Source: Thioalkalivibrio sp. ALJ16
Lineage (GTDB): Bacteria > Pseudomonadota > Gammaproteobacteria > Ectothiorhodospirales > Ectothiorhodospiraceae
Direction of reading: 5' to 3'
Assembly (NCBI RefSeq): GCF_000377345.1
Contig: NZ_KB898038.1
Location: forward strand, 124,001 to 188,000
DNA length: 64,000 nucleotides
The position numbers and the translations under genes are program-made. Every line of letters starts with the position of its first letter. Position 1 is the stretch's first letter. Shown piece after piece: positions 6,469 to 22,201 of the stretch. The notes beneath the pieces are model-generated. The model had not been told where the DNA came from, searched no databases, and saw only the letters and a list, made by a program, of their open reading frames with translations.

Positions 6469-6885
6469 TCAGCCTCGTGCCGCGGCGGCGTTCCAGCGCC
6501 GCCCCATGCGGCTGCCCAGCCACACCCCCGCGATCCACAGCATCAGAGAGACAGCCACATAAAACCCGGCGCGCCCCGCGGCACCCGACTGCAACAGCAA
6601 CAGGCTCTCGAGACTGAAGACCGAGAAGGTCGTGAAACCACCGCAGACACCGGCCAGCATGAAATGACGAAACACCGGATCGGCCGGGCGGCAGCCGCCC
6701 GGCGCGCTGATCACCGCATACAGCCCGATCAGCCACGATCCGGCCACGTTCACGGCCAGCGTATCCCAGGGAAAGCCGGTGCCGGCCAGGTGCAACCCAG
6801 TCCAGGAAATGGCATAGCGCGCCATGCTGCCGAGCGCGGCCCCCAGCGCGACGAACAGCGAGAGACGCAGCGAATACCCGGTCAC
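6469..6885 (-). CDS. crcB: Fluoride channel CrcB/Fluc, second of a tandem pair
   Basis: The 138-residue protein starts at GTG, overlapping the upstream crcB stop by four bases (GTGA). It has four predicted helices with the family motifs LGSMARYAIS, TLAVNVAGSWLIG and GVCGGFTTFSVFSLES, the last being the pore phenylalanine box and TM3 break. Fluc proteins form antiparallel dual-topology dimers that expel F-. Two adjacent, diverged copies suggest an obligate heterodimer, as described for paired crcB genes in other bacteria. No fluoride riboswitch was recognised upstream. Confidence 0.9.
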   Translation of the reverse strand: MTGYSLRLSLFVALGAALGSMARYAISWTGLHLAGTGFPWDTLAVNVAGSWLIGLYAVISAPGGCRPADPVFRHFMLAGVCGGFTTFSVFSLESLLLLQSGAAGRAGFYVAVSLMLWIAGVWLGSRMGRRWNAAAARG

Positions 6886-7280
6886 GCCGCGCCCCCCGCC
6901 AGGCGGCCCAGTGCGTGCCCGATGGCCACCAGCGACAGCCCTCCGCCCAGCGTCAGCAGGACATAGACCAGCGCCGGGCGCAGCCCGTCCTGTTCGGCGA
7001 CCCCGACCACCTGCAGGCTGAACGAGGAGACCGTGGTGAAGCTGCCGAGCACGCCCACCACCAGCAGCAGCCAGAGCCAGGAGGTCCACGCCGGCCCCGA
7101 GGCCCAGCCCAGCGCCAGCCCGATCAGCAGCGCACCGGAGGCATTCACCGCCAGCGTCCCCCACGGGAAGCGGCCGCCCCCGGTGCGGTTGTCGATCCAC
7201 TGCGACAGCCAGAAGCGCGCCAGCCCCCCCAGCGCACCCCCGGCTCCCACCAGCAACAGGCCCTCCCACCACGCGATCAT
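6882..7280 (-). CDS. crcB: Fluoride channel CrcB/Fluc, first of a tandem pair
   Basis: The 132-residue four-helix protein is read from the ATG at 7280 (MIAWWEGLLL). It shows GGLARFWLSQW, TLAVNASGALLIG and GVLGSFTTVSSFSLQ, the same signatures as its partner but less canonical: Gly-Ser replaces Gly-Gly in the TM3 motif. It is translationally coupled to the second copy. A longer in-frame start exists but adds an arginine-rich segment with no homology to the family. The gene diverges from ettA across about 180 bp. Confidence 0.88.
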   Translation of the reverse strand: MIAWWEGLLLVGAGGALGGLARFWLSQWIDNRTGGGRFPWGTLAVNASGALLIGLALGWASGPAWTSWLWLLLVVGVLGSFTTVSSFSLQVVGVAEQDGLRPALVYVLLTLGGGLSLVAIGHALGRLAGGAA

Positions 7281-7462
7281 GGCCCCATTGTCAGCGCGCC
7301 CGGCGAGCCTTGTCGAGCGCACCGGCCGGCCAGCACGCACGGGCAGCCGCCCAAATCCCGCGCCATTCGGGCCTCCCCCTCGTCGGAATGGTAAAGTGCG
7401 GGCGCAGTGCGGGCCGTCAGCGGCCCGCCCCTCATTCAAACCGCTTAGGTCGCAGGAGCATC

Positions 7463-9246: not shown

Positions 9247-9813
9247 CTATGCCGTCGGCATCATCGACGAGTGGTGGTGGACGATCTTCCACGCGCCGTC
9301 ACGGTTTTCGTAGACGAAGGTATAGCGGGCGGGGACCTCCTTGGTCTCGCCGCCGTCGGTCACGCGGAAGGTATAGGTGCCGGCGTCGGTCAGCTTGTTG
9401 CAGCCGAGCTTCACGTTGCGGGAGTTGATGGTGCCGAAAGGCTTCTTCTCGAGGAAGTGCTCGAAGTAGTCCTGGATCTCGGCGGGACTGGTGCGCGGCA
9501 CATTCGAGACCGTCGGCAGCAGTACGGCGTCGTCCGCGTAGAGTGCGGTTACACGGCGCGCATCACCGGTCTGCAGTGCAACATTCCAGGCATCGAACAG
9601 TTCCTCGGCCAGGCGCCGGGTAGCCGGGGCACAGACCACGCAGCTCTCGTTGGCCGGGGTGTCGATGGCGCCCAGATGCGGGTCGCCGCCGGTACCGGTG
9701 ACGGGGTGATGCTGGTCCCGGTGGGAGGCACTCAGGCTCAGGCGCGAACGCGGGGCCTCGTCGGCGTTGATGAACTGGGTGCCACTGATGCGCGGGCGGG
9801 TCTGCGTGCTCAC
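9247..9813 (-). CDS. Iota-class carbonic anhydrase-like protein (SgcJ/EcaC, CaMKII-AD fold) with CsoS2-like N-terminal tag
   Basis: The 188-residue protein starts at GTG with GGAG 7 nt upstream. Residues ~60-188 form a SnoaL-like/CaMKII-association domain: LFDAWNVALQTGDA, ALYADDAVLLPTVSN, KLGCNK, ARYTFVYE and, at 179-183, HHHSS followed by MMP. The HHHSS-xMP ending, VLLPTVSN and YTFVYE are hallmarks of the COG4337-related iota carbonic anhydrases known from diatoms, cyanobacteria and Burkholderia. No signal peptide is present. The first ~55 residues are an apparently disordered extension with ISGT at 9-12 and VTGT at 38-41, matching the [IV][TS]G shell-binding motifs of CsoS2. Location after cbbR and before the block terminator supports a role in CO2 fixation, probably inside the carboxysome (inference). 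Database labels may read 'oxidoreductase'; no such chemistry is visible. Confidence 0.75.
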   Translation of the reverse strand: MSTQTRPRISGTQFINADEAPRSRLSLSASHRDQHHPVTGTGGDPHLGAIDTPANESCVVCAPATRRLAEELFDAWNVALQTGDARRVTALYADDAVLLPTVSNVPRTSPAEIQDYFEHFLEKKPFGTINSRNVKLGCNKLTDAGTYTFRVTDGGETKEVPARYTFVYENRDGAWKIVHHHSSMMPTA

Positions 9814-9857
9814 TGCGTGTCTCCGACGACGGCCCTTCGGGGCCGGATAGATGCTGA

Positions 9858-9886
9858 ATTGTACGGCCCCGTCCGGGGCCTGTCAT
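9858..9886 (-). promoter_or_regulatory. Candidate sigma70 promoter with palindromic spacer for the iota-CA-like gene
   Basis: On the minus strand ATGACA (9881-9886) and TACAAT (9858-9863) are separated by exactly 17 bp, each one mismatch from the sigma70 consensus. The spacer contains the 16-bp palindrome GGCCCCGGACGGGGCC (9865-9880), which could be an operator or a hairpin ending the cbbR transcript. The predicted start site would leave a leader of roughly 35-40 nt. Confidence 0.55.
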
Positions 9887-9903: not shown

Positions 9904-10926
9904 TCAGGCAGCCTGTGCCTTGAACGCGGCCAGCATGTCCTCGACCTGGGCACGCAGGCGCGCCTCGTCCTGGATTGCGAAATCGAGGAAGGTCTGGGCC
10001 ACCACCGACAGGACCTTCTTTTTCGGGTAGACGATGTGCCATTGCCGGTGGATCGGAAAGTGCTCGACATCGAGCAGCGTCACCGGGCCGCCGGCACCCT
10101 CCGCGCTGAGGGTGTGCAGCGACAGTACGGCAATGCCCAACCCCCCGATCACCGCGTGCTTGATCGCCTCGTTGGAGCCGAGCTCCATGCGCACCGGCGG
10201 GTTGATGCCCTGTTCCTCGAACAGCCGCAGGGTGGCCTCGCGGATGCCGGAGCCCGGTTCGCGCATCAGGAAGGTCTCCCCTTCCAGCTCCTTGAGCGGG
10301 ATGTTCCGGCGCCCGGCCAGGGGGTGGTCGCGATTGGCCATCACCACCAGCGGGTTCGGCGCGAACGGGTGTACTTCGACATCGGTCAGGCGTTCCGGCA
10401 CGTGACCAATGATGTAGAGATCGTCGTCATTATTGGCCAGGCGCTCCAGCACCCGGTCAAAGTTGCTGACCTCCAGTGACAGCTCGACATCCGGGTAGCG
10501 CCGCGCGAACTGGCCCAGGATGCTGGGTGCGAAATACTGTGCCGTGGTGATGACCGCCAGGCGCAACCGACCACGCTTGAGGCCGTGCATCTCCGCCAGC
10601 TTCATCTCCAGGTTGGTCAGCGCGCCCAGCATCTCGCGGCAGGTGTCATACAGCAGCAGGCCCACCTCGGTCGGGAAGGCCTTGCGGCCGACGTACTCGA
10701 ACAGCGGCAGGCCCAGCGCGGTGGTCAGTTTCTTGATCTGGATCGAGACGGTGGGCTGGGTCAGGTGCAGCTCTTCCGCCGCACGGGTAAAGCTGCCCAG
10801 ACGCACGATCGCCTCGAACACCTGCAGCTGGCGCAGCGTCGCGTGCCGGATCAGATGCGCCGGGAGCTCCGACTTCAGCATCACCTGTGGAAGGCTGCCG
10901 TCCTTGCCCGCGCCCTGGCTGCTCAC
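9904..10926 (-). CDS. cbbR: LysR-type CO2-fixation regulator CbbR
   Basis: The 340-residue protein starts at GTG with AGGAG 7 nt upstream. An N-terminal winged helix-turn-helix (TLRQLQVFEAIVRLGSFTRA then LTQPTVSIQIKKL, residues ~30-85) precedes a LysR substrate-binding domain. The sequence resembles CbbR, which senses metabolites such as RuBP or NADPH and activates cbb/cso operons. It lies 18 nt downstream of cbbO on the same strand, so it is distal in the operon it probably controls, not divergent from cbbL as is usual. That arrangement would give positive feedback if the operon is read through. Confidence 0.88.
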   Translation of the reverse strand: MSSQGAGKDGSLPQVMLKSELPAHLIRHATLRQLQVFEAIVRLGSFTRAAEELHLTQPTVSIQIKKLTTALGLPLFEYVGRKAFPTEVGLLLYDTCREMLGALTNLEMKLAEMHGLKRGRLRLAVITTAQYFAPSILGQFARRYPDVELSLEVSNFDRVLERLANNDDDLYIIGHVPERLTDVEVHPFAPNPLVVMANRDHPLAGRRNIPLKELEGETFLMREPGSGIREATLRLFEEQGINPPVRMELGSNEAIKHAVIGGLGIAVLSLHTLSAEGAGGPVTLLDVEHFPIHRQWHIVYPKKKVLSVVAQTFLDFAIQDEARLRAQVEDMLAAFKAQAA

Positions 10927-10944: not shown

Positions 10945-13263
10945 TTACCGGGTCAGTCCGGCATACAGCATCGGCAGCTTTTCCGGTAGCCGCTCGATCT
11001 GGTCCAGCACCATGAAGTGCTGTGCGCCGAAGATCCGCTCGACGTACTCGTCCGCATTCGGATCCAGGCTGATACAGAAGGTGTAGACCCCATTGCGCCC
11101 CACCTCCTCCACGGCCCGCTTGGCATCCTGGCGCAGGTACTGGGGGTCGCGTACGTCGGTATCCGCCGGTTCGCCATCGGTGATGATCAGCAGCAGCTTC
11201 TTCTGCGTGCCCTGCTGCTGCAGCAGGTGACCGGCGTGGCGTACCGCCGTGCCCATGCGCGTGGACAGCTGGCCCTGCATACCGGCCAGGCGCGCCTTGG
11301 CATGATCGTCGTACGGGGCATCGAAGTCCTTGAAGCGGTAGTACTCCACGTCATGGCGACCGTCGGAGGCAAAGCCGTGGATCGCGAACGGGTCCCCGAT
11401 GCGCGAAATCGCACCCCCCAGCAAAGCGGTGGCCTCGCGTGCCAGCTGCACCACGCTGGTCTCGGTTCCACGCACCATCTCGTTGGTGGATTCCGACAGA
11501 TCGAGCAGCACCAGGACCGAGAGATCGCGCACCTGACGCACGTTGCGTACGTAAATCCGTTCGTCCGGCTGGCGACGCATGCGCAGGTCGATCTGGGCAT
11601 CGACCAGGGCGTTCACGTCCAGTTCGTCACCTTCGGCCTGCTTGCGCAGGCGCTGCACGCCCTGCGGCTGCATTGCCTCGATCAGGAACTTCAGCCGCGA
11701 GATCAGCGGCTTGTGTTTCTCGTTGATCGCCTCGATCTCGGCCACGTCGCCCTTTTTGGGGCGCCGCTCCAGGAGCGTCGTCCAGTGCGGCCGTTCCAGC
11801 TGCATCTGGTAGTCCCACTCGTGGTAGTGGTAGGGCAGCGAGAGCGGTTCCTTGCCCTCCTGCTGGTTGATGCTCTCATCCTCGCCGTCGCGGAACCACT
11901 CCGTCGCCAGCACCATGATCTGCTGGGCATCGTCACCGGCGAACTCCACGTCCAGCGTATTGATCATCTGCATCGGCGTGACGTAGAAGCGCTCCTGGTT
12001 GCTGCCATGCGCCGCCAGTACCTCGAAGTCCTCTTCCTCGCGACCAAATGCCCAGAGGTAACGGTTGTCGTCCCGATACAGGATCTCCGGCGCCACCTGG
12101 CGCGGGTTCATGTAGCCCTGCTCCGGAAACTCCGGCCCCAGCCGCGCCGCCAGCTCGCCCGCCAGCCCCGGTGCCTCGAGGTCCTCGACCGCCTCGAATG
12201 CCGCCCGGGCACTGCGCACGAAGGCATGGTCGTCGCGATAGTCCGGGTCCAGAAGGGCCCGCGCGGTGCGCGCCAGGACGGCCTGCGGGCCGTCGCCATC
12301 GCTCGCACTGGCGGTATGCATCGGGGTCCAGATCTGACGCAGCCCCGGGAACGCGCGCGCCGCGAGGGCCTCCACGCGGGCATCCTCGAACAGCTCCGTC
12401 AGGATACCGGTCACCCCGCGCGGCGCCTCCTCCGGCTGCATTTCGCGGGTGTGGACCACATGCGCCGCCGCATGGGCCGCGGCCGCCCGGTACAGGTCCA
12501 GCCCGGTCAGGCCCTCCCAGTCGTCGAAGGCATCCGGCAGGAACATCGTGAACCCTTCGATGTAGGGCCGGTATCCCTCGCGCGACTCGAAGTCGCCGCT
12601 GGTCGGGCGCATGAAGAAGTCGCGCGCCCACAGGGATCGCAGATAGAGGTTGATGCGCCGCTGCACATCCACGAACAGCGTGCCGCGCCGCTCCTTCTGG
12701 AATACCGACTGCGATTCCGGCGACTGCAGCCCGAAGTAGGCGACCTGCGCCTCCAGGTCGGTCCGGTGCGCCTGCGCCCCCCAGGATGCCCAGCGCCGCA
12801 GGCCGCCAAGGGTCAGCTGAGAAAGCAGTTCGTCCAGGTGTTCCAGCATCGGCCGCACGCCGCGCGGGGCCTGACCCAGCAGATTGTCGACCAGGCGCAG
12901 GTAGCCGCCGAACAGCGTGGCATCCCCCAGTCGCCGCGCCGCGACCGGACTGGTCGAGATCAGCAGGGTGATCACCGCCGCGGAGGTCTTGGAATACATC
13001 TTGACCGCGGAGCTCACCAGGTCGGCGACCGCGTCCTCGCCCAGTTCATGGGCGAGGTCCGGCGTCTCCTGAATGAACGCGACCACCATCTCCGTCCCGC
13101 GGCCGAGGGCATGCAGACTGCGGGCCCCTTCGAGGTAGTAGCGCTTCAGGCCGGCGGCGCTGAAGGCGCGCGAGGCCTCCTGCCACGACGCCTCAAGCAC
13201 CTCGGCGGCGTGGTCTCCCAGATCCGCGAGGAGGTCCTGATAGTCCTCCAGATGAACGCTCAT
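10945..13263 (-). CDS. cbbO: RuBisCO activase subunit CbbO (von Willebrand factor A)
   Basis: The 772-residue protein has an extended alpha-helical N-terminal region and a C-terminal VWA domain (~580-772). The VWA domain carries the MIDAS motif DLSES in VLVLLDLSEST and a second acidic site near LIITDGEPAD. CbbO binds RuBisCO through the VWA MIDAS and, with the CbbQ AAA+ ring, removes inhibitory sugar phosphates from the active site. It follows cbbQ by 20 nt. Length and domain order match CbbO, and the neighbouring cbbQ and RuBisCO genes distinguish it from the related NorD. Confidence 0.93.
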   Translation of the reverse strand: MSVHLEDYQDLLADLGDHAAEVLEASWQEASRAFSAAGLKRYYLEGARSLHALGRGTEMVVAFIQETPDLAHELGEDAVADLVSSAVKMYSKTSAAVITLLISTSPVAARRLGDATLFGGYLRLVDNLLGQAPRGVRPMLEHLDELLSQLTLGGLRRWASWGAQAHRTDLEAQVAYFGLQSPESQSVFQKERRGTLFVDVQRRINLYLRSLWARDFFMRPTSGDFESREGYRPYIEGFTMFLPDAFDDWEGLTGLDLYRAAAAHAAAHVVHTREMQPEEAPRGVTGILTELFEDARVEALAARAFPGLRQIWTPMHTASASDGDGPQAVLARTARALLDPDYRDDHAFVRSARAAFEAVEDLEAPGLAGELAARLGPEFPEQGYMNPRQVAPEILYRDDNRYLWAFGREEEDFEVLAAHGSNQERFYVTPMQMINTLDVEFAGDDAQQIMVLATEWFRDGEDESINQQEGKEPLSLPYHYHEWDYQMQLERPHWTTLLERRPKKGDVAEIEAINEKHKPLISRLKFLIEAMQPQGVQRLRKQAEGDELDVNALVDAQIDLRMRRQPDERIYVRNVRQVRDLSVLVLLDLSESTNEMVRGTETSVVQLAREATALLGGAISRIGDPFAIHGFASDGRHDVEYYRFKDFDAPYDDHAKARLAGMQGQLSTRMGTAVRHAGHLLQQQGTQKKLLLIITDGEPADTDVRDPQYLRQDAKRAVEEVGRNGVYTFCISLDPNADEYVERIFGAQHFMVLDQIERLPEKLPMLYAGLTR

Positions 13264-13283
13264 GGGTGCGCCGGCGGTACGGT

Positions 13284-14087
13284 CTAGAAGAAGGTGGTGA
13301 CGGCGGAATCGAGCGCGTCGCGCATGTCCGGGTCGTCAGTGATCGGGCGCACCAGCGCCATACGGCACGCCGCCAGCGGCGCGACCTGTTTCGCGATCAG
13401 CGACGCGGCATACACCAGCATGCGGGTGGAGATGCCCTCGTCCAGGCCATGCCCCTTGAGGTTGCGCGCGCGCTCGGCGACGCTCACCAGCTTGCCCGCC
13501 ATCTCCTCGGTCACACCGCCCTCGTGGGCCACGATGCGCGCTTCCGTCTCGTGGTCCGGGTAGTTGAAGTCCAGCGCGCCGAAGCGCTGCTTGGTGGATT
13601 CCTTCAGGTCCTTCATCAGGCTCTGATAGCCGGGGTTGTAGGAGATCACCACCTGGAAATCCGGATGGGCCTCGACCATCTCCCCCTTCTTTTCCAGCGG
13701 CAGCACGCGCCGGTTGTCGGTCAGCGGGTGGATCACCACCGTGGTGTCCTGGCGCGCCTCGACGATCTCGTCCAGATAGCAGATCGCGCCGTGCCGCGCG
13801 GCCAGCGTCAGCGGACCGTCCTGCCAGCGGGTGCCATTGGCGTCGAGCAGGTAGCGACCGACCAGGTCGGATGCCGTCATGTCCTCGTTACAGGCCACCG
13901 TGATCAGCGGCTTGCCCAGCTTCCATGCCATGTGCTCGACGAAACGCGTCTTGCCGCACCCGGTCGGCCCCTTGAGCATCATCGGCATGCGCACCGAATA
14001 GGCCGCCTCGTACAGCTCGACCTCGTCCGCGGTCGGCTGGTAGTACGGCTCCTCGGTGATCATGTGATCGCGCAGTTCGTCCTGCAT
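13284..14087 (-). CDS. cbbQ: RuBisCO activase AAA+ ATPase CbbQ
   Basis: The 267-residue MoxR-type AAA+ protein has Walker A GPTGCGKT (residues ~40-47), Walker [11 protein letters not shown], sensor-1 VISYNPGYQ and a C-terminal helical lid. The ATG at 14087 has GAGGAG 7 nt upstream and gives the usual CbbQ length; a TTG five codons earlier overlaps that ribosome site and is rejected. It forms the hexameric motor of the CbbQO activase. A GC hairpin separates it from mcdB. Confidence 0.94.
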
Positions 14088-14109
14088 GATTCGACTCCTC
14101 AATCAGAAA

Positions 14110-15964: not shown

Positions 15965-16279
15965 TCAGCTGGCCGAACCGGTCGCGCTCGGGGAGGTCGG
16001 CAGAATGCCTTCCACCTCGGAGTGCACGCGCGCAATGATGTGCGCAGCCACCAGGCCGTCACCCACACGCTCGCAGGAATCCGCACCGGCACGCACAGCG
16101 GCGTTCACGGCACCGGTTTCGCCACGGACCAGCACGGTCACGTAACCACCACCGACGAACTGACGACCAATCAGGCGCACTTCGGAGGCCTTGGTCATCG
16201 CATCGGCGGCTTCAATCGCCGGCACCAGACCACGGGTCTCGATCATGCCAAGGGCCACACCAGAAATTTCGCTAGCCAT
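15965..16279 (-). CDS. csoS1B: Carboxysome shell hexamer CsoS1B
   Basis: The 104-residue single-BMC-domain protein begins MASEISGVALGMIETRGLVP and contains the invariant AADAMTKASEV and pore-lining segment RQFVGGGYVTVLVRG. It is nearly identical to the other two csoS1 products but carries about seven extra residues after VEGILP (TSPSATGSAS). That tail corresponds to the CsoS1B C-terminal extension in other proteobacteria. It is the most distal hexamer gene, downstream of an intrinsic terminator, so lower expression than csoS1A/C is expected. Confidence 0.93.
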   Translation of the reverse strand: MASEISGVALGMIETRGLVPAIEAADAMTKASEVRLIGRQFVGGGYVTVLVRGETGAVNAAVRAGADSCERVGDGLVAAHIIARVHSEVEGILPTSPSATGSAS

Positions 16280-16295
16280 CTTCTACCTCTTCTTC

Positions 16296-16330
16296 AAAAA
16301 AGCCACCGGGGCCGCAACCGGCCCGGTGGC
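16296..16330 (-). terminator. Intrinsic terminator inside the cso operon, after csoS1A
   Basis: GCCACCGGG (16302-16310) pairs perfectly with CCCGGTGGC (16322-16330), and inner GC bases can extend the stem. It is followed directly by six Ts in the minus direction. It starts 17 nt after the csoS1A stop and precedes csoS1B. It probably acts as a partial terminator, lowering expression of csoS1B and everything downstream. Confidence 0.8.
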
Positions 16331-16346
16331 GTTTCACTACCGCGAG

Positions 16347-16640
16347 TTACGGCTTTTCCGGGAGGATGTTTTCCACCTCGGAATGGACGCGAGCAATGAT
16401 GTGCGCGGCCACCAGGCCGTCGCCCACGCGCTCGCAGGAATCCGCACCGGCACGCACAGCGGCGTTCACGGCACCGGTTTCGCCACGGACCAGCACGGTC
16501 ACGTAACCACCGCCCACGAACTGACGACCAATCAGGCGCACCTCGGAAGCCTTGGTCATCGCGTCGGCGGCTTCAATCGCCGGCACCAGACCACGGGTCT
16601 CGATCATGCCGAGGGCCACACCAAAGTTTTCGCTAGCCAT
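16347..16640 (-). CDS. csoS1A: Carboxysome shell hexamer CsoS1A
   Basis: The 97-residue BMC-domain protein matches the canonical CsoS1A/C length. Sequence from GVALGMIETRG to AHIIARVHSEVENILP is the hexamer core, with the GGG pore loop. It forms the flat shell facets through which bicarbonate and RuBP pass. It differs from its neighbours only in the first and last few residues. The A/C naming follows gene order, since the two cannot be told apart by sequence. Confidence 0.94.
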   Translation of the reverse strand: MASENFGVALGMIETRGLVPAIEAADAMTKASEVRLIGRQFVGGGYVTVLVRGETGAVNAAVRAGADSCERVGDGLVAAHIIARVHSEVENILPEKP

Positions 16641-16671
16641 TACTCAACTCCTATCAAGCGTTACTGATAAA

Positions 16672-16971
16672 TTACTTTTCAACCTGCTCGGGCAGGATGC
16701 TTTCCACTTCGGAATGCACGCGCGCAATGATGTGCGCAGCCACCAGGCCGTCACCCACACGCTCGCAGGAATCCGCACCGGCACGCACAGCGGCGTTCAC
16801 GGCACCGGTTTCGCCACGGACCAGCACGGTCACGTAACCCCCGCCCACGAACTGACGACCAATCAGGCGCACTTCGGAGGCCTTGGTCATCGCATCGGCG
16901 GCTTCAATCGCCGGCACCAGACCACGGGTCTCGATCATGCCCAGCGCCACACCAAAACGTTCAGTTGCCAT
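16672..16971 (-). CDS. csoS1C: Carboxysome shell hexamer CsoS1C
   Basis: The 99-residue BMC-domain protein (MATERFGVALGMIETRG... to SEVESILPEQVEK) is the first hexamer gene after csoS4B. It is near-identical in protein and DNA to csoS1A and csoS1B, differing at the N-terminal five residues and the C-terminal tail. It is a major shell component. The DNA identity, including synonymous sites, points to recent duplication or ongoing gene conversion. Confidence 0.94.
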   Translation of the reverse strand: MATERFGVALGMIETRGLVPAIEAADAMTKASEVRLIGRQFVGGGYVTVLVRGETGAVNAAVRAGADSCERVGDGLVAAHIIARVHSEVESILPEQVEK

Positions 16972-17617: not shown

Positions 17618-19174
17618 TTACGCGGCCAGCGGCTCGAGCCGGCTGCCGCTGCGTTTGTCGCGGATCACCATGTGACAGCCAATCAGGCCTTTCTCCGCGA
17701 GGTCGCGATAGCGATCCATGATCGTGTTCCGGATCCGGCGGCAGCGTGCCTCCACCCGCTCCCGCGATCCCGGCACCTTGCGGTCGTAGCGGTAGTGGAT
17801 CACCACCGGGACCGGCAGGCCGCGTTCGACGTTCAGCTTCCGGAAAATCTTGTTCACGCCGACATCCATGCCTTTGGCGCCTTCTTCCATCGTCTCCAAG
17901 TGCGCGAAGTAGGCAAAGTTGCGTACCTGCATCTCCTCGATCTCCTGGCCGACGATGATCACGCGCTCGCGGTGGCCAACATCGGCATAATGCCCACCGT
18001 GGTACCGCGCCACGTAGTCCAGCTGCGAAATATTGTTCAGCAGCAGCCGCGAGATCAGTCGCAGCATGCCCTCGTGCGGCGCCCCGTTACCGCGACCCCA
18101 ACCCTGCTGGTGAATCGCGTCCTGGATCGCCTGGTACACCCGCAGCGAGGCCGCCTGCTCGTCCATCCCCTGGGTTTCGCGATACACCTGCGCACTGTCC
18201 ACGAAGCGGTACAGGCTCATGCGCGTATCCGCGTCCGGGATGTGGATCTTGACCGAATCCGTATCCGTATCCACGCCAATCAGCAGCGTGTCCACCGAGG
18301 CCCCACAACAGTAGGTATTCTCGATCGCCTGGCGGAACGCGCGCAGCTGGTGCAGAGCCCCGTCGGCCGCGTCCCGCTCATTGTTTCCGTGCGCCGCGCA
18401 GCCCTGATGCATCGGATCGGCGCCACTGTAGTGGTAGGCCGCGATCTTCAGGTAGCGGCTGGGCACATCCGCCGTGGTCGGCCGACCCTCTCGGAAACGC
18501 AGCAACTCACGCTTGGTCCAGTGGCGCACGTCCTCCTCGATATCGAACTGCGCACCGGCATAGCTGCGCACCCGCACCGCGAGGTCAGGCAGGCGCAGGA
18601 TAAACCGGCGCAGTCCCAGCAGGCGCCCGTCGGAACAGGGCGAGATATCCACCTCGTGGAAATCGCAGTCCAGAAAATACGCAATCGCGCTCTCCGCCTC
18701 CGCCACCAGGTCATCCCGGCCCGCCCAGTATTCGTTGACCACCTGGTCGAAGAGCTCGAAGGTCCCGTGCAAGTACAGTTCACGGGTATCGAGGTCGTTT
18801 ATCCAGGCGTCTTCCAGAGCCTTCTCGGGCAGGCGGTAGCCGAGGCGCTGTTCCACGATCGCCTGCGCCCGCCGCTCGAAGTCCATCTCGTGCTGAAGGG
18901 CATGCACCTCCTTCAGCACCGGCACCAGCTCCGCAAAGCGGTCGCGGAACCCTTGCTCGAAGGCGTGCAGCCGCTCGTTCATGGCCACATCCGCCAGCGG
19001 ATGCCCCGGCAGCAGCTCGCGCGGGTCCCCCGCACTCGTCGTGTCACCTGCGGGAACCGGGCTCACCAAGGCCGTCGGTGCCGTGGAAACCGCGGCCGAA
19101 TTGCGGGCAGCCACCGCCCGGGTCTTCGCGAACCGCGAACCCAGGGCACTGCTCTTGCGACGACCGCGCACCAT
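17618..19174 (-). CDS. csoSCA: Carboxysomal carbonic anhydrase CsoSCA (CsoS3)
   Basis: The 518-residue protein is the epsilon/beta-type carbonic anhydrase of alpha-carboxysomes, converting luminal HCO3- to CO2. Candidate zinc ligands are Cys180, His248 and Cys259, with the Asp182-Arg184 dyad in CSDGR; the 11-residue spacing between His and the second Cys matches the family. The first ~60 residues are a disordered basic/Pro-rich stretch, the region that tethers CsoSCA to RuBisCO in Halothiobacillus. The catalytic set is intact, so the iota-CA-like gene downstream is not simply compensating for a dead enzyme. Confidence 0.95.
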   Translation of the reverse strand: MVRGRRKSSALGSRFAKTRAVAARNSAAVSTAPTALVSPVPAGDTTSAGDPRELLPGHPLADVAMNERLHAFEQGFRDRFAELVPVLKEVHALQHEMDFERRAQAIVEQRLGYRLPEKALEDAWINDLDTRELYLHGTFELFDQVVNEYWAGRDDLVAEAESAIAYFLDCDFHEVDISPCSDGRLLGLRRFILRLPDLAVRVRSYAGAQFDIEEDVRHWTKRELLRFREGRPTTADVPSRYLKIAAYHYSGADPMHQGCAAHGNNERDAADGALHQLRAFRQAIENTYCCGASVDTLLIGVDTDTDSVKIHIPDADTRMSLYRFVDSAQVYRETQGMDEQAASLRVYQAIQDAIHQQGWGRGNGAPHEGMLRLISRLLLNNISQLDYVARYHGGHYADVGHRERVIIVGQEIEEMQVRNFAYFAHLETMEEGAKGMDVGVNKIFRKLNVERGLPVPVVIHYRYDRKVPGSRERVEARCRRIRNTIMDRYRDLAEKGLIGCHMVIRDKRSGSRLEPLAA

Positions 19175-19198: not shown

Positions 19199-22100
19199 TT
19201 AGCCGCGCGCCCCGCCGGACAGCGTCACCAGCGAACCGGCGTCACTGTTCCCGGAGGAACCGGTGATCTTGCTCGGGGGCACATCCTTGCGCTCCAGTTC
19301 CCGATTGAGATACGCGCTCCGACCTTCACCGCGCGGATTCCCCTTCTGCGTGGCGTTGCGACGGGTCGAGAAACCCTCGGTCCCGGTCACGCGGTCACCG
19401 CGCTGCCAGTCGTCCCCGGTGATGGACACGCCGTTGCTGCTGCCATTCACGGTCACCCGTTCGGCACCCACCTTCGGCTGGTCTTCCACCGGTGCGGCGG
19501 CGACCGCCGGCTCCTGGCGGCTGTAGCGGAACTCTTCCGTGCCCGACACCAGGCCCATGGCCTTGTTGATCGAGCCGGTCACGCTGCCGCTGCTGCCGTA
19601 GGCGGTACCGGTCACACGCTCGCGGCGTTCGGCCGCGGCCCGTGCCGGGGTGTTCACGCTGAAACCGCCATTCGGCATCGGACGTTCCGCGGCTCGCGGG
19701 GCGGACGGAGCCGCCACCTGCATCCCCTCGGGACGCAGCCGCGGATGCAGGCTGCCCGCCGCGCTGGAGCAGGTACGGGCGAACTCGTTGGCACCCACGT
19801 ACGGGGCACCCGAGACGTCCTGACAGGCGCCACGTTCGGTACCAGTTACGCGCTCGTCATAGCCTGGCTGGCTGCCGGACACCGGGTGGGCCGGGGTCGA
19901 GTGGCGATCCGCCACGCGGGTACCCGCCACTTCGGAATCACGCGGCTCGCAGAACTGGTCGTACTGGTCCGGGCCGATGTAGGCGGTGCCGCTGACCGGC
20001 TTGCAGGCGCCGTATTCGTCGCCGGTCACGCGGGCCGAACGACCCACTGCGGTGCCAGACACGAGCTGCTGATTCCAGGTGCGGCCGACCGTCACCTTCT
20101 CCGGCGCGGCCTGCGGACGGCTGCCGCCACAAAATGCGTCATAGTGCTCGGAGCCGGCGTATTCGGTACCGGTGATCGGCTTGCAACCGCCGTACTCGTC
20201 GCCGGTCACGCGGATGGAGCTGTCCACCTGGGTACCGGAAACCTCACGGCCACGCAGGGTGTGCATCACCCCGACCTTGGGCACGCCACCGGCACCGGGG
20301 CGCTCGCACAGGTCGCCGAAATCCGACTTGTTGTAATACGGCGTGCCCGTCAGCGTGGCGCAGGAGCCGGGTTCGTCACCCGTAACCTTGGCGCTGCGGC
20401 CGACAGCAATGCCGGTCACACTCTGGTCGTCCTGGGTGTGCGACTCCTGCACCTTGGCCGGGGCCGGTTCCGGGCGCGTTCCACAGAAGCCCTGGAACTG
20501 TTCCTGCCCGAGGTATTCGGTGCCGGTCACGGGCTTGCAGCTCCCGTATTCGTCACCGGTCACGTGCACGGAGCGCCCGACTTCGGTGCCGGTCAGTTCA
20601 CGACCGCGAAGGGTGTGCATGACGCCGACCTTGACCGGCGCTCCGCTGGGCTTTCCCGTGCTGCAGGGAACCTCGCTCGCCGCGGTGTTCAGATACTCGG
20701 TGCCGGTGATGTCGCGGCAGGAGCCGGATTCATCGCCGGTGACCTTGGGGCTGCGCCCCACGGAGGTGCCCGAGACGCCCTCGCCCTGACGGGTGACCAT
20801 CACACTGGTGCGCGCCGGGGCGCCCTGCGGACGCGTGCCGCAGAACCCCTCGTATTGCTCGCTACTGAGGTATTCGGTCCCGGTAATAGTCTCGCAGGAG
20901 CCACGCTCGTCGCCGGTCACCCGAGTGGAGCGGCCAACTTCGGTGCCGCTCACGGCCTGACCGCGAGTGGTGTGAGAGGTACCGACCTTGGGCGGATTGC
21001 CCGCCGGGCGCACCCCGCAGTAGCGCTCGTAGTGCTCGAGACCCAGATATTCGGTACCGGTGATGGCCGAGCAGCTGCCCGCCTCCGTGCCGGTCACGTT
21101 CTGGCTGCGCTCGACCTGGGTGCCGCTGACGTGGCTGCCGGCCAGCGTGGTGCCTTCCTCGACCTTGGGCGGGGCGTCGGCATCACCAGGGCGCGGGCGC
21201 CCGCACGGACGACCGGGCTCGGACGAGCCACGCCCCAGCTTGCAGAGTTCTTCGCGGCGTTGACGCGCGACTTCGCGGGTCGACATGCCCTTGCGCTTGG
21301 CCGCCTTCCAGGCGCCCTCCTGGGGCAGGGCACCGCGGGCCTGGCCACCCTTGAAGCGGCGGCGCAGGGCCTGCTTGCCGTTCTGGGCCATCGCGTCGCG
21401 CCGGGCCATGCAGATCGCACGGACCTCGGAGATCATCGGATGCGGGCCGGCGGCTTCGCCCCCGGACTCGACCTTGTCGCACAGCTGGTCAAGACCGGTG
21501 TCGACCACCGCCTGTTCAGGAGTCGCCGCGTGGACAGGCTCCTGGCCAGCTTTCTCGCCCTTGCAGCCACAGCCGCAATCCTTGCTCGCTTCAGTGGGCG
21601 CGGACTGCACCGGCTCGCGCCCCTTCAGACGGTCTTCCCGGCGCGGCTCCGGCGCCATGGCCTTCTTGCCATCGGTGGCAAGGGCCTGGCGACGCAGACG
21701 GCAGATCTCGCGGCCACTCATATGCGAGCAGTCGACTTCCACGTTCTGCGACTGGGCCAGGGCCTCGAGCTGGCGGGAGCGGTCCGCCCCCGCGCGGGCC
21801 ATGCCGCCGGAGACCCGCGCCCGGGTGTTGGTACGGCCCACGGCCTTCTTGCCCTGGCGCGCCATCTTCTGGCGGCGCTCGAGGGCGGCCTGCCGGCCGT
21901 TGGAGGCACCCGCATGCGCGCCCGGCTCGGGGCGGCGCTCGGGAGTGGTGTCGCGGGTCTCGAAGGAGACCGGCGACGACGATTCGCTGATGTGCTGCTC
22001 CGGCTCCCGCGCCTGGGGTGCCGGGGCGGGTGCCGCTTTCGCCTGGCGCGCCTGTTGCGCAGCCGCGGCGGAACGGTTGTTCCCCTTGGTTTGGCCGGTC

Positions 22101-22201
22101 GACTTCACGGCAGCCTTGCCATTACGAGACATGGCCTTGCGCCGTTCCAGGGCACGTTCACGCCCCGAGAGACCTTCAGACGCAGATGTCGGATTACTCA
22201 T
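19199..22201 (-). CDS. csoS2: Carboxysome assembly scaffold CsoS2
   Basis: The 1000-residue, intrinsically disordered protein has three regions. The N-terminal region (~1-300) repeats basic helices such as RERALERRKAMSRNGKAAV and REICRLRRQALATDGKKAM that bind RuBisCO. The middle region (~340-780) holds about eight repeats of VSGT-VGRS-VTGDE-G-C-ITGTEY with paired cysteines. The C-terminal region carries further VTG/ITG motifs (RVTGTAYGSSG, SITGDDW, KITGSSGN) that lock to the shell. It links RuBisCO to the shell during assembly. CsoS2 in some relatives is also made as a short form by -1 frameshifting; I did not locate a slippery site here. Confidence 0.96.
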   Translation of the reverse strand: MSNPTSASEGLSGRERALERRKAMSRNGKAAVKSTGQTKGNNRSAAAAQQARQAKAAPAPAPQAREPEQHISESSSPVSFETRDTTPERRPEPGAHAGASNGRQAALERRQKMARQGKKAVGRTNTRARVSGGMARAGADRSRQLEALAQSQNVEVDCSHMSGREICRLRRQALATDGKKAMAPEPRREDRLKGREPVQSAPTEASKDCGCGCKGEKAGQEPVHAATPEQAVVDTGLDQLCDKVESGGEAAGPHPMISEVRAICMARRDAMAQNGKQALRRRFKGGQARGALPQEGAWKAAKRKGMSTREVARQRREELCKLGRGSSEPGRPCGRPRPGDADAPPKVEEGTTLAGSHVSGTQVERSQNVTGTEAGSCSAITGTEYLGLEHYERYCGVRPAGNPPKVGTSHTTRGQAVSGTEVGRSTRVTGDERGSCETITGTEYLSSEQYEGFCGTRPQGAPARTSVMVTRQGEGVSGTSVGRSPKVTGDESGSCRDITGTEYLNTAASEVPCSTGKPSGAPVKVGVMHTLRGRELTGTEVGRSVHVTGDEYGSCKPVTGTEYLGQEQFQGFCGTRPEPAPAKVQESHTQDDQSVTGIAVGRSAKVTGDEPGSCATLTGTPYYNKSDFGDLCERPGAGGVPKVGVMHTLRGREVSGTQVDSSIRVTGDEYGGCKPITGTEYAGSEHYDAFCGGSRPQAAPEKVTVGRTWNQQLVSGTAVGRSARVTGDEYGACKPVSGTAYIGPDQYDQFCEPRDSEVAGTRVADRHSTPAHPVSGSQPGYDERVTGTERGACQDVSGAPYVGANEFARTCSSAAGSLHPRLRPEGMQVAAPSAPRAAERPMPNGGFSVNTPARAAAERRERVTGTAYGSSGSVTGSINKAMGLVSGTEEFRYSRQEPAVAAAPVEDQPKVGAERVTVNGSSNGVSITGDDWQRGDRVTGTEGFSTRRNATQKGNPRGEGRSAYLNRELERKDVPPSKITGSSGNSDAGSLVTLSGGARG

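Follow-up and report, generated by a model that had tools for sequence, protein, structure and literature searches.

The alpha-carboxysome locus of Thioalkalivibrio sp. ALJ16 raises the question of why a second carbonic anhydrase gene adjoins a set of cso genes that already includes an intact csoSCA, and of where the second enzyme would act. In the window, by which is meant the whole stretch of 64,000 nucleotides that was analyzed, the genes lie on the minus strand in the order csoS2 (19199..22201, a scaffold rich in [IV][TS]G motifs, assigned from its sequence and by NCBIfam), csoSCA (17618..19174, the beta-type carboxysomal carbonic anhydrase), csoS4, three csoS1 genes for shell hexamers (15965..16971), bfr, acRAF, parA, cbbQ and cbbO (10945..14102, between the parA region and cbbR), a cbbR-like LysR regulator (9904..10926) and, 90 bp downstream of it, the gene for a tagged iota-type carbonic anhydrase (iCA; 9247..9813). 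Several of these names, including cbbO and cbbQ, were given by inspection, and the gene order recurs in relatives. The iCA gene encodes 188 amino acids from a GTG start preceded by GGAGA and is the sole clear copy in its genome. The reading preferred here, with a probability of about 0.62, is that iCA is a carboxysome-targeted enzyme of the iota class that works beside CsoSCA and is held in place by its N-terminal tag, most likely through docking on CsoS1. That it is a tagged second carboxysomal carbonic anhydrase is well supported by comparison of sequences; that it is a natural cargo enzyme with its own CsoS2-type [IV][ST]G docking motifs, and that carboxysomes in several genera of sulfur oxidizers would have two unrelated carbonic anhydrases, with the zinc beta-type CsoSCA bound to Rubisco and the iota-type enzyme at the shell, is proposed more tentatively.

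The preliminary description placed iCA at the end of the cso operon. The gene does adjoin the operon, but it should be regarded as a neighbor rather than clearly its last member because it follows cbbR and has its own promoter-like site, ATGACA-17-TACAAT (9858..9886, minus strand). The −10-like box of this site, in the form TA[ACT]AAT, is kept in 10 of 11 aligned sequences (the window and ten from Thioalkalivibrio), the exception being L044, and it suggests a separate promoter; the simpler view of iCA as a plain last gene of the operon was set aside on this argument, which falls short of proof. The leader between the box and the start codon (9814-9860, minus strand) contains an inverted repeat, GGCC...GGCC, in all 11 sequences. 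Elsewhere in the window, positions 6469-7439 (minus strand) apparently hold two tandem genes for CrcB-like membrane proteins, with a P-type ATPase and an ABC-F protein on either side; a CrcB-like query gave two adjacent matches in L047, and the tandem pair is otherwise recognized by inspection.

The two enzymes are of unrelated classes. CsoSCA, described at the outset as intact, is indeed full length (TIGR02701, E = 3.3e-185; solved CsoSCA structures, E to 5.7e-144), and it retains SPCSDGR, HQGCAAHG, and YCCGAS, which we take to be the sites of the zinc ligands and of the Asp/Arg pair. Residues 61–188 of iCA (9250..9633, minus strand) constitute an NTF2-like domain, assigned from Pfam, solved relatives, and a structural model: CaMKII_AD, a cone-shaped alpha+beta barrel, matches residues 71–186 (E = 2.9e-21), and AlphaFold models the folded domain with confidence. 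The closest solved structure by sequence, 3h51 (E = 5.2e-44), is also the top match in a fold search with the model (Z 22.2, 55% identity) and is called an apparent iota-CA in the accessible text of PMC8132391; the iota-CAs 7c5v and 7c5x have Z scores of 16.5 and 16.4, level with many other NTF2-like proteins, and the NCBIfam match is to TIGR02246, "SgcJ/EcaC oxidoreductase." The hallmark sequences HHHSS..MP, VLLPTVSN, and YTFVYE do not vary across 11 aligned iCA proteins. His180, His181, Ser182, and Ser183, invariant in the alignments including a set of 17 rows, represent the His-His-Ser-Ser motif of the class, which in COG4337/COG4875 enzymes is C-terminal according to the same source, and Thr101 and Tyr116, also invariant in the 17 rows, are the likely counterparts of the catalytic Thr106 and Tyr124 of all2909. 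The family search, the fold, and the alignment therefore bear out the iota-type domain of the preliminary description. By homology, the domain would interconvert CO2 and bicarbonate through an iota-type active site.

Among 72,556 plasmid records, 377 contain relatives of the enzyme domain, and enterobacteria and rhizobia account for many of them. These relatives are often annotated as SgcJ/EcaC family oxidoreductases, a name that may mask periplasmic iota-CAs. Among the 50 matches listed of these 377, the match begins at query residue 49 or beyond, and one of the 377 spans at least 80% of the iCA query.

With the COG4337/COG4875 iota-CAs (all2909, Bn86287, and 3h51), iCA has in common the fold, the HHSS motif, and a single domain as in other prokaryotic members, but it differs at the N terminus. 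A signal peptide is predicted for most bacterial COG4337 proteins, as far as the available part of PMC8132391 goes, whereas iCA has in that place a tag of about residues 5–41 (9691..9801, minus strand) that is conserved and predicted to be disordered, with ISGT at 9–12 and VTGT at 38–41, as the preliminary description located them, and R.SLSAS.R at 24–32. The absence of an evident signal peptide, likewise noted earlier, was judged by eye from the polar N terminus and from the model, in which residues 1–49 have pLDDT values below 50. The untagged relatives that were looked at have a signal-peptide-like N terminus or no clear extension (by eye), the untagged status of L088 being based on its match range.

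A protein was counted as tagged if [IV][ST]G[TS]..[ILF] occurs in the 75 residues ahead of the iCA domain. Among 34 tagged proteins with distinct enzyme domains, the first motif is present in all and a second [IV][ST]G in 32; it is missing from L094, a tandem copy, and the homolog L085 has VTQ at that position. A lone [IV][ST]G can arise by chance, but two such motifs within 45 residues are unusual, beyond chance: 24 other genes of the window, picked by hand (9,464 amino acids), contain 13 [IV][ST]G and one [IV][ST]GT, and none of their 8,408 windows of 45 residues has two motifs. The motif blocks, which are short and were picked after the alignment had been seen, have pN/pS ratios of 0.06, 0.08, and 0.00 in 13 genes of the Thioalkalivibrio type, as compared with 0.12 for the carbonic anhydrase domain and 0.35–0.41 for the stretches between and after them; over all 23 genes, the values are 0.19–0.23 for the blocks, 0.21 for the domain, and 0.73–0.76 between blocks. 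The blocks thus appear to be about as constrained as the enzyme domain, with the [IV][ST]G triplets and R.SLSAS.R as the most constrained positions. A disordered stretch that keeps only short motifs resembles a binding tag.

The motifs recall those of CsoS2, in which short [IV][ST]G(T) sequences are repeated along a disordered chain. According to the accessible text of PMC10484944, shell architecture is controlled by the [IV]TG motifs of CsoS2, which contact His79 of CsoS1A and which in CsoS2-C are spaced by about 8 residues. PMC11365436, seen in part, reports that the shell is bound less strongly and growth in air is impaired when VTG or Tyr of the middle repeats is mutated, and PMC10938918, also seen in part, that foreign cargo enters shells with CsoS2-C as an encapsulation peptide. 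Each of the three CsoS1 sequences of the window keeps the stretch GLVAAHIIARVH with the histidine that corresponds to His79 of CsoS1A. A tag with two such motifs could by analogy dock on the shell. By contrast, a profile of the tag, built from the 16 that remained of 31 when these were thinned at 85% (L053, for which an upstream frame had been matched, was left out), gave no significant match among 42 CsoS2 proteins, and the top score of 4.5 bits was the same for real and shuffled sequences. Scores of at least 2 bits were obtained for 10 of the 42 real proteins and 5 of 210 shuffled ones, an excess consistent with a short core common to the tag and CsoS2. The tag has only two motifs and is fused to an enzyme, and it lacks the Cys/Tyr pattern of the middle repeats; since its spacing also differs and the profile match is not significant, it is not classed as a CsoS2 repeat, although it may still act like one. 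A direct copy of the CsoS2 C-terminal peptide (ITGSSG...SGGARG) was considered and rejected: of 16 tags, 7 scored above at least 59 of 60 shuffles with a profile of that peptide, chiefly at ITG or VTG and the few residues that follow, and the remaining 9 scored within the range of the shuffles. The likeness to CsoS2, judged from these comparisons, is limited to the short [IV][ST]G core.

It had been suggested that a second carbonic anhydrase is recruited to the shell by a mimic of CsoS2. The unrelated second enzyme, the conserved tag with its low pN/pS, and the co-occurrence with cso genes described below agree with this; the mimicry itself is reduced to the core motif (best E value 2.3; spacing of 29 residues as opposed to about 8), and recruitment to the shell is inferred by analogy. 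Since its flexible front end bears CsoS2-like motifs, iCA probably enters the carboxysome as a supplementary enzyme. In the mechanism envisaged, the flexible first 50 or so residues would serve as a localization tag that keeps iCA inside the alpha-carboxysome, and the [IV][ST]G motifs would dock on the inner face of CsoS1 hexamers in the manner of CsoS2. The tag does not seem to be a general encapsulation signal, an idea that was tried and dropped: against its own genome the profile matched iCA alone and not CsoS2 at E values up to 10, and in seven other genomes only iCA matched below E = 0.04, with scattered short matches at 0.044–8. No tagged relatives were found on viral contigs.

An enzyme of the same kind in the same place could instead be held by Rubisco. 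CsoSCA is recruited through a disordered N-terminal peptide that binds Rubisco, for which, in the part of PMC10614612 available, no consensus exists in proteobacteria; it is thus like the iCA tag in being a disordered N-terminal extension of a carboxysomal carbonic anhydrase and unlike it in sequence, in enzyme class, and in having no conserved proteobacterial motif, whereas the iCA tag is conserved across genera. Most tags of Thioalkalivibrio and Guyparkeria begin with RPR and have further conserved arginines, as might suit such a partner, but RPR is absent from Methylonatrum and from more distant tags, the strongest constraint falls on the [IV][ST]G triplets and R.SLSAS.R, and the Rubisco motif of CsoS2, RxxxxxRRxxxxxxGK, was not found in the tag by inspection. 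Binding to Rubisco is therefore considered unlikely, though it is the best placed of the alternatives to docking on CsoS1.

Whether the tagged enzyme belongs to the carboxysome was approached through its distribution in three sets of homologs, which overlap. With the tag as query and one genome per species, 22 loci were found, all encoding iCA (14 Thioalkalivibrio, 3 Guyparkeria, Methylonatrum, and 4 MAGs); that all are tagged follows from the query, and the result says no more than that the tag is carried by iCA at these loci. Ten of them (L054-L063) were traced to genomes, all of which have CsoS2 and CsoSCA; at least three of these genomes recur in other samples, as judged from contig coordinates (G048 = G213, G053 = G044, and G054 = G041). 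An even draw across the class gave 369 genomes, of which 72 have CsoS2 (PF12288) and 18 have an iCA match, tagged in 10 and untagged in 8. Nine of the 10 genomes with tagged iCA also have CsoS2, but none of the 8 whose iCA is untagged does (Fisher p = 4e-4); counted by family, the figures are 5 of 6 and 0 of 6 (p = 0.015), it being understood that these tests treat related genomes as independent. The one tagged genome of this sample without CsoS2 is 84% complete. The tag thus tracks cso, and it does so even where the genes are unlinked.

In the window's own family, 19 of 47 genomes have an iCA match and 18 of these are tagged. Tagged iCA was found in all 18 genomes with CsoSCA at least 71% identical to that of the window, but not in any of the 19 whose CsoSCA is at most 48% identical or of the 10 that gave no CsoSCA match. 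It should be noted that such counts overstate independence because the genomes are all related, and that the co-occurrence of tag and carboxysome is confounded by shared ancestry because the tag has about one origin. As a separate observation, the CsoSCA proteins of the window's genus and family fall into two sharply distinct sets inside one nominal genus, the first at least 71% identical to the CsoSCA of the window and the second no more than 48%, which suggests replacement or transfer of the whole cso operon.

A tree of 37 of 48 sequences (a set of 41 plus 7 added, from which 11 near-identical tagged rows had been dropped) places 23 tagged rows and one untagged paralog on one side (support 89/97, under the starred 95/80 level for bootstrap). 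On this tree, the tag seems to have arisen about once. A strict single clade of tagged proteins was not recovered, the untagged copy from T. thiocyanoxidans falling inside it, although the constrained grouping is not rejected (p-AU = 0.062). This copy (L046:10714-11097; also in G039, L014/L022) lies in tandem directly after the tagged one and has a signal-peptide-like start, suggesting that the tag was exchanged for export after duplication. It is also the single instance of a cso-adjacent homolog without the motifs, an arrangement that the preliminary description had named as counter-evidence; its N terminus tempers that reading.

The same side of the tree includes both iCA copies of G109, which we presume to be Thiomicrospira from the arrangement of its locus. 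In its cso locus (L131), csoSCA is missing and a pair of iCA genes adjoins cbbR. Both have the first tag motif, and one, the L094 copy, is without a second [IV][ST]G; by tblastn, their products have 59 and 52% identity to iCA of the window, which groups with them in the tree. Of the 72 genomes with CsoS2, three have no CsoSCA match: G109 and G172, both with tagged iCA, and a third genome whose CsoS2 is truncated at the end of a contig. CsoSCA is present in 61 of 62 further CsoS2 genomes of the class and in all of the remaining eight. In G172, which is from another family (L133, L134), CsoS2 occurs without a CsoSCA match and with a tagged iCA about 80 kb from cso on the same contig; it is possibly a second lineage that relies on iCA alone.

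An iCA as the carboxysomal enzyme is already known, having been reported in 2024 for Thiomicrospira according to papers that cite the work, so that an iota-CA in alpha-carboxysomes is not new in itself (PMC12918739, PMC12628692, and PMC12646314, each available in part). PMC12628692 describes iCA in place of CsoSCA in Thiomicrospira carboxysomes, with which the accessible portions of PMC12646314 and PMC13159521 agree, and in the 2026 review PMC12918739, also seen in part, Wieschollek et al. 2024 (AEM e0107524) is the source given for the use of the iota class by several sulfur chemolithotrophs without a classical carbonic anhydrase. The window resembles this system in that an iota-class enzyme without an evident signal peptide (by eye and from the disordered model) is encoded with an alpha-carboxysome locus in a sulfur oxidizer of alkaline environments; it differs in that iCA replaces CsoSCA there, whereas an intact CsoSCA is also present here. 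The two tagged iCA genes of the csoSCA-less G109 locus, which is like that of Thiomicrospira, favor a carboxysomal location for iCA. A literature search, mostly without subscription journals and with the 2024 Thiomicrospira work known through citing papers, found no iCA beside an intact CsoSCA and no [IV][ST]G tag.

A cytosolic enzyme that has lost its signal peptide, serves pH or inorganic carbon balance outside the carboxysome, and binds something else through the tag appears improbable. COG4337-type proteins do occur in several compartments (PMC8132391, available in part). The promoter-like site suggests separate control, and the gene may sit far from cso: in two single-contig genomes, the distance from iCA to CsoS2 is about 0.73 Mb (G323) and 0.54 Mb (G416), and at 6 of the 22 tag-query loci the stretch retrieved around iCA is free of cso genes, although two of these (L056 and L062) stop at or close to the end of a contig or lie on a short one and cannot be judged. 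However, tag and CsoS2 occur together despite this lack of linkage, and a carbonic anhydrase in the cytosol would, in the theory of CO2-concentrating mechanisms, short-circuit a cell that accumulates bicarbonate. It is very improbable that the domain is an NTF2-like relative without catalytic activity that has a structural or regulatory role in the carboxysome, for although the fold is common to many non-carbonic anhydrase proteins at similar Z scores and the database family bears an oxidoreductase name, the closest solved fold is an apparent iota-CA, the HHSS motif and Thr101/Tyr116 are invariant, and the accessible text of PMC12628692 and PMC12646314 reports iCA as the carboxysomal carbonic anhydrase of Thiomicrospira, which lacks CsoSCA.

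Besides the differences from CsoS2 and the shared ancestry noted above, an observation on enzyme activity counts against the preferred reading, a tagged iCA working beside CsoSCA in the carboxysome: COG4337 enzymes hydrate CO2 without metal but, in the available part of PMC8132391, show no obvious dehydration of bicarbonate in vitro, which is the direction that a carboxysome needs. Genomes with both carbonic anhydrases would bear on whether iota-CAs dehydrate bicarbonate, an activity unseen in vitro for COG4337 proteins in that source. The entry of iota-CAs into alpha-carboxysomes lacks an explanation in the literature found, and the conserved tag of about 35 residues is a testable candidate for it and might also serve carboxysome engineering as a compact encapsulation peptide. 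In the soda-lake and halophilic sulfur oxidizers, a possibly metal-independent iCA may supplement or back up the zinc enzyme CsoSCA, and the genomes that have both offer a system in which such a back-up of the zinc-dependent enzyme by an iota-CA could be examined at high pH.
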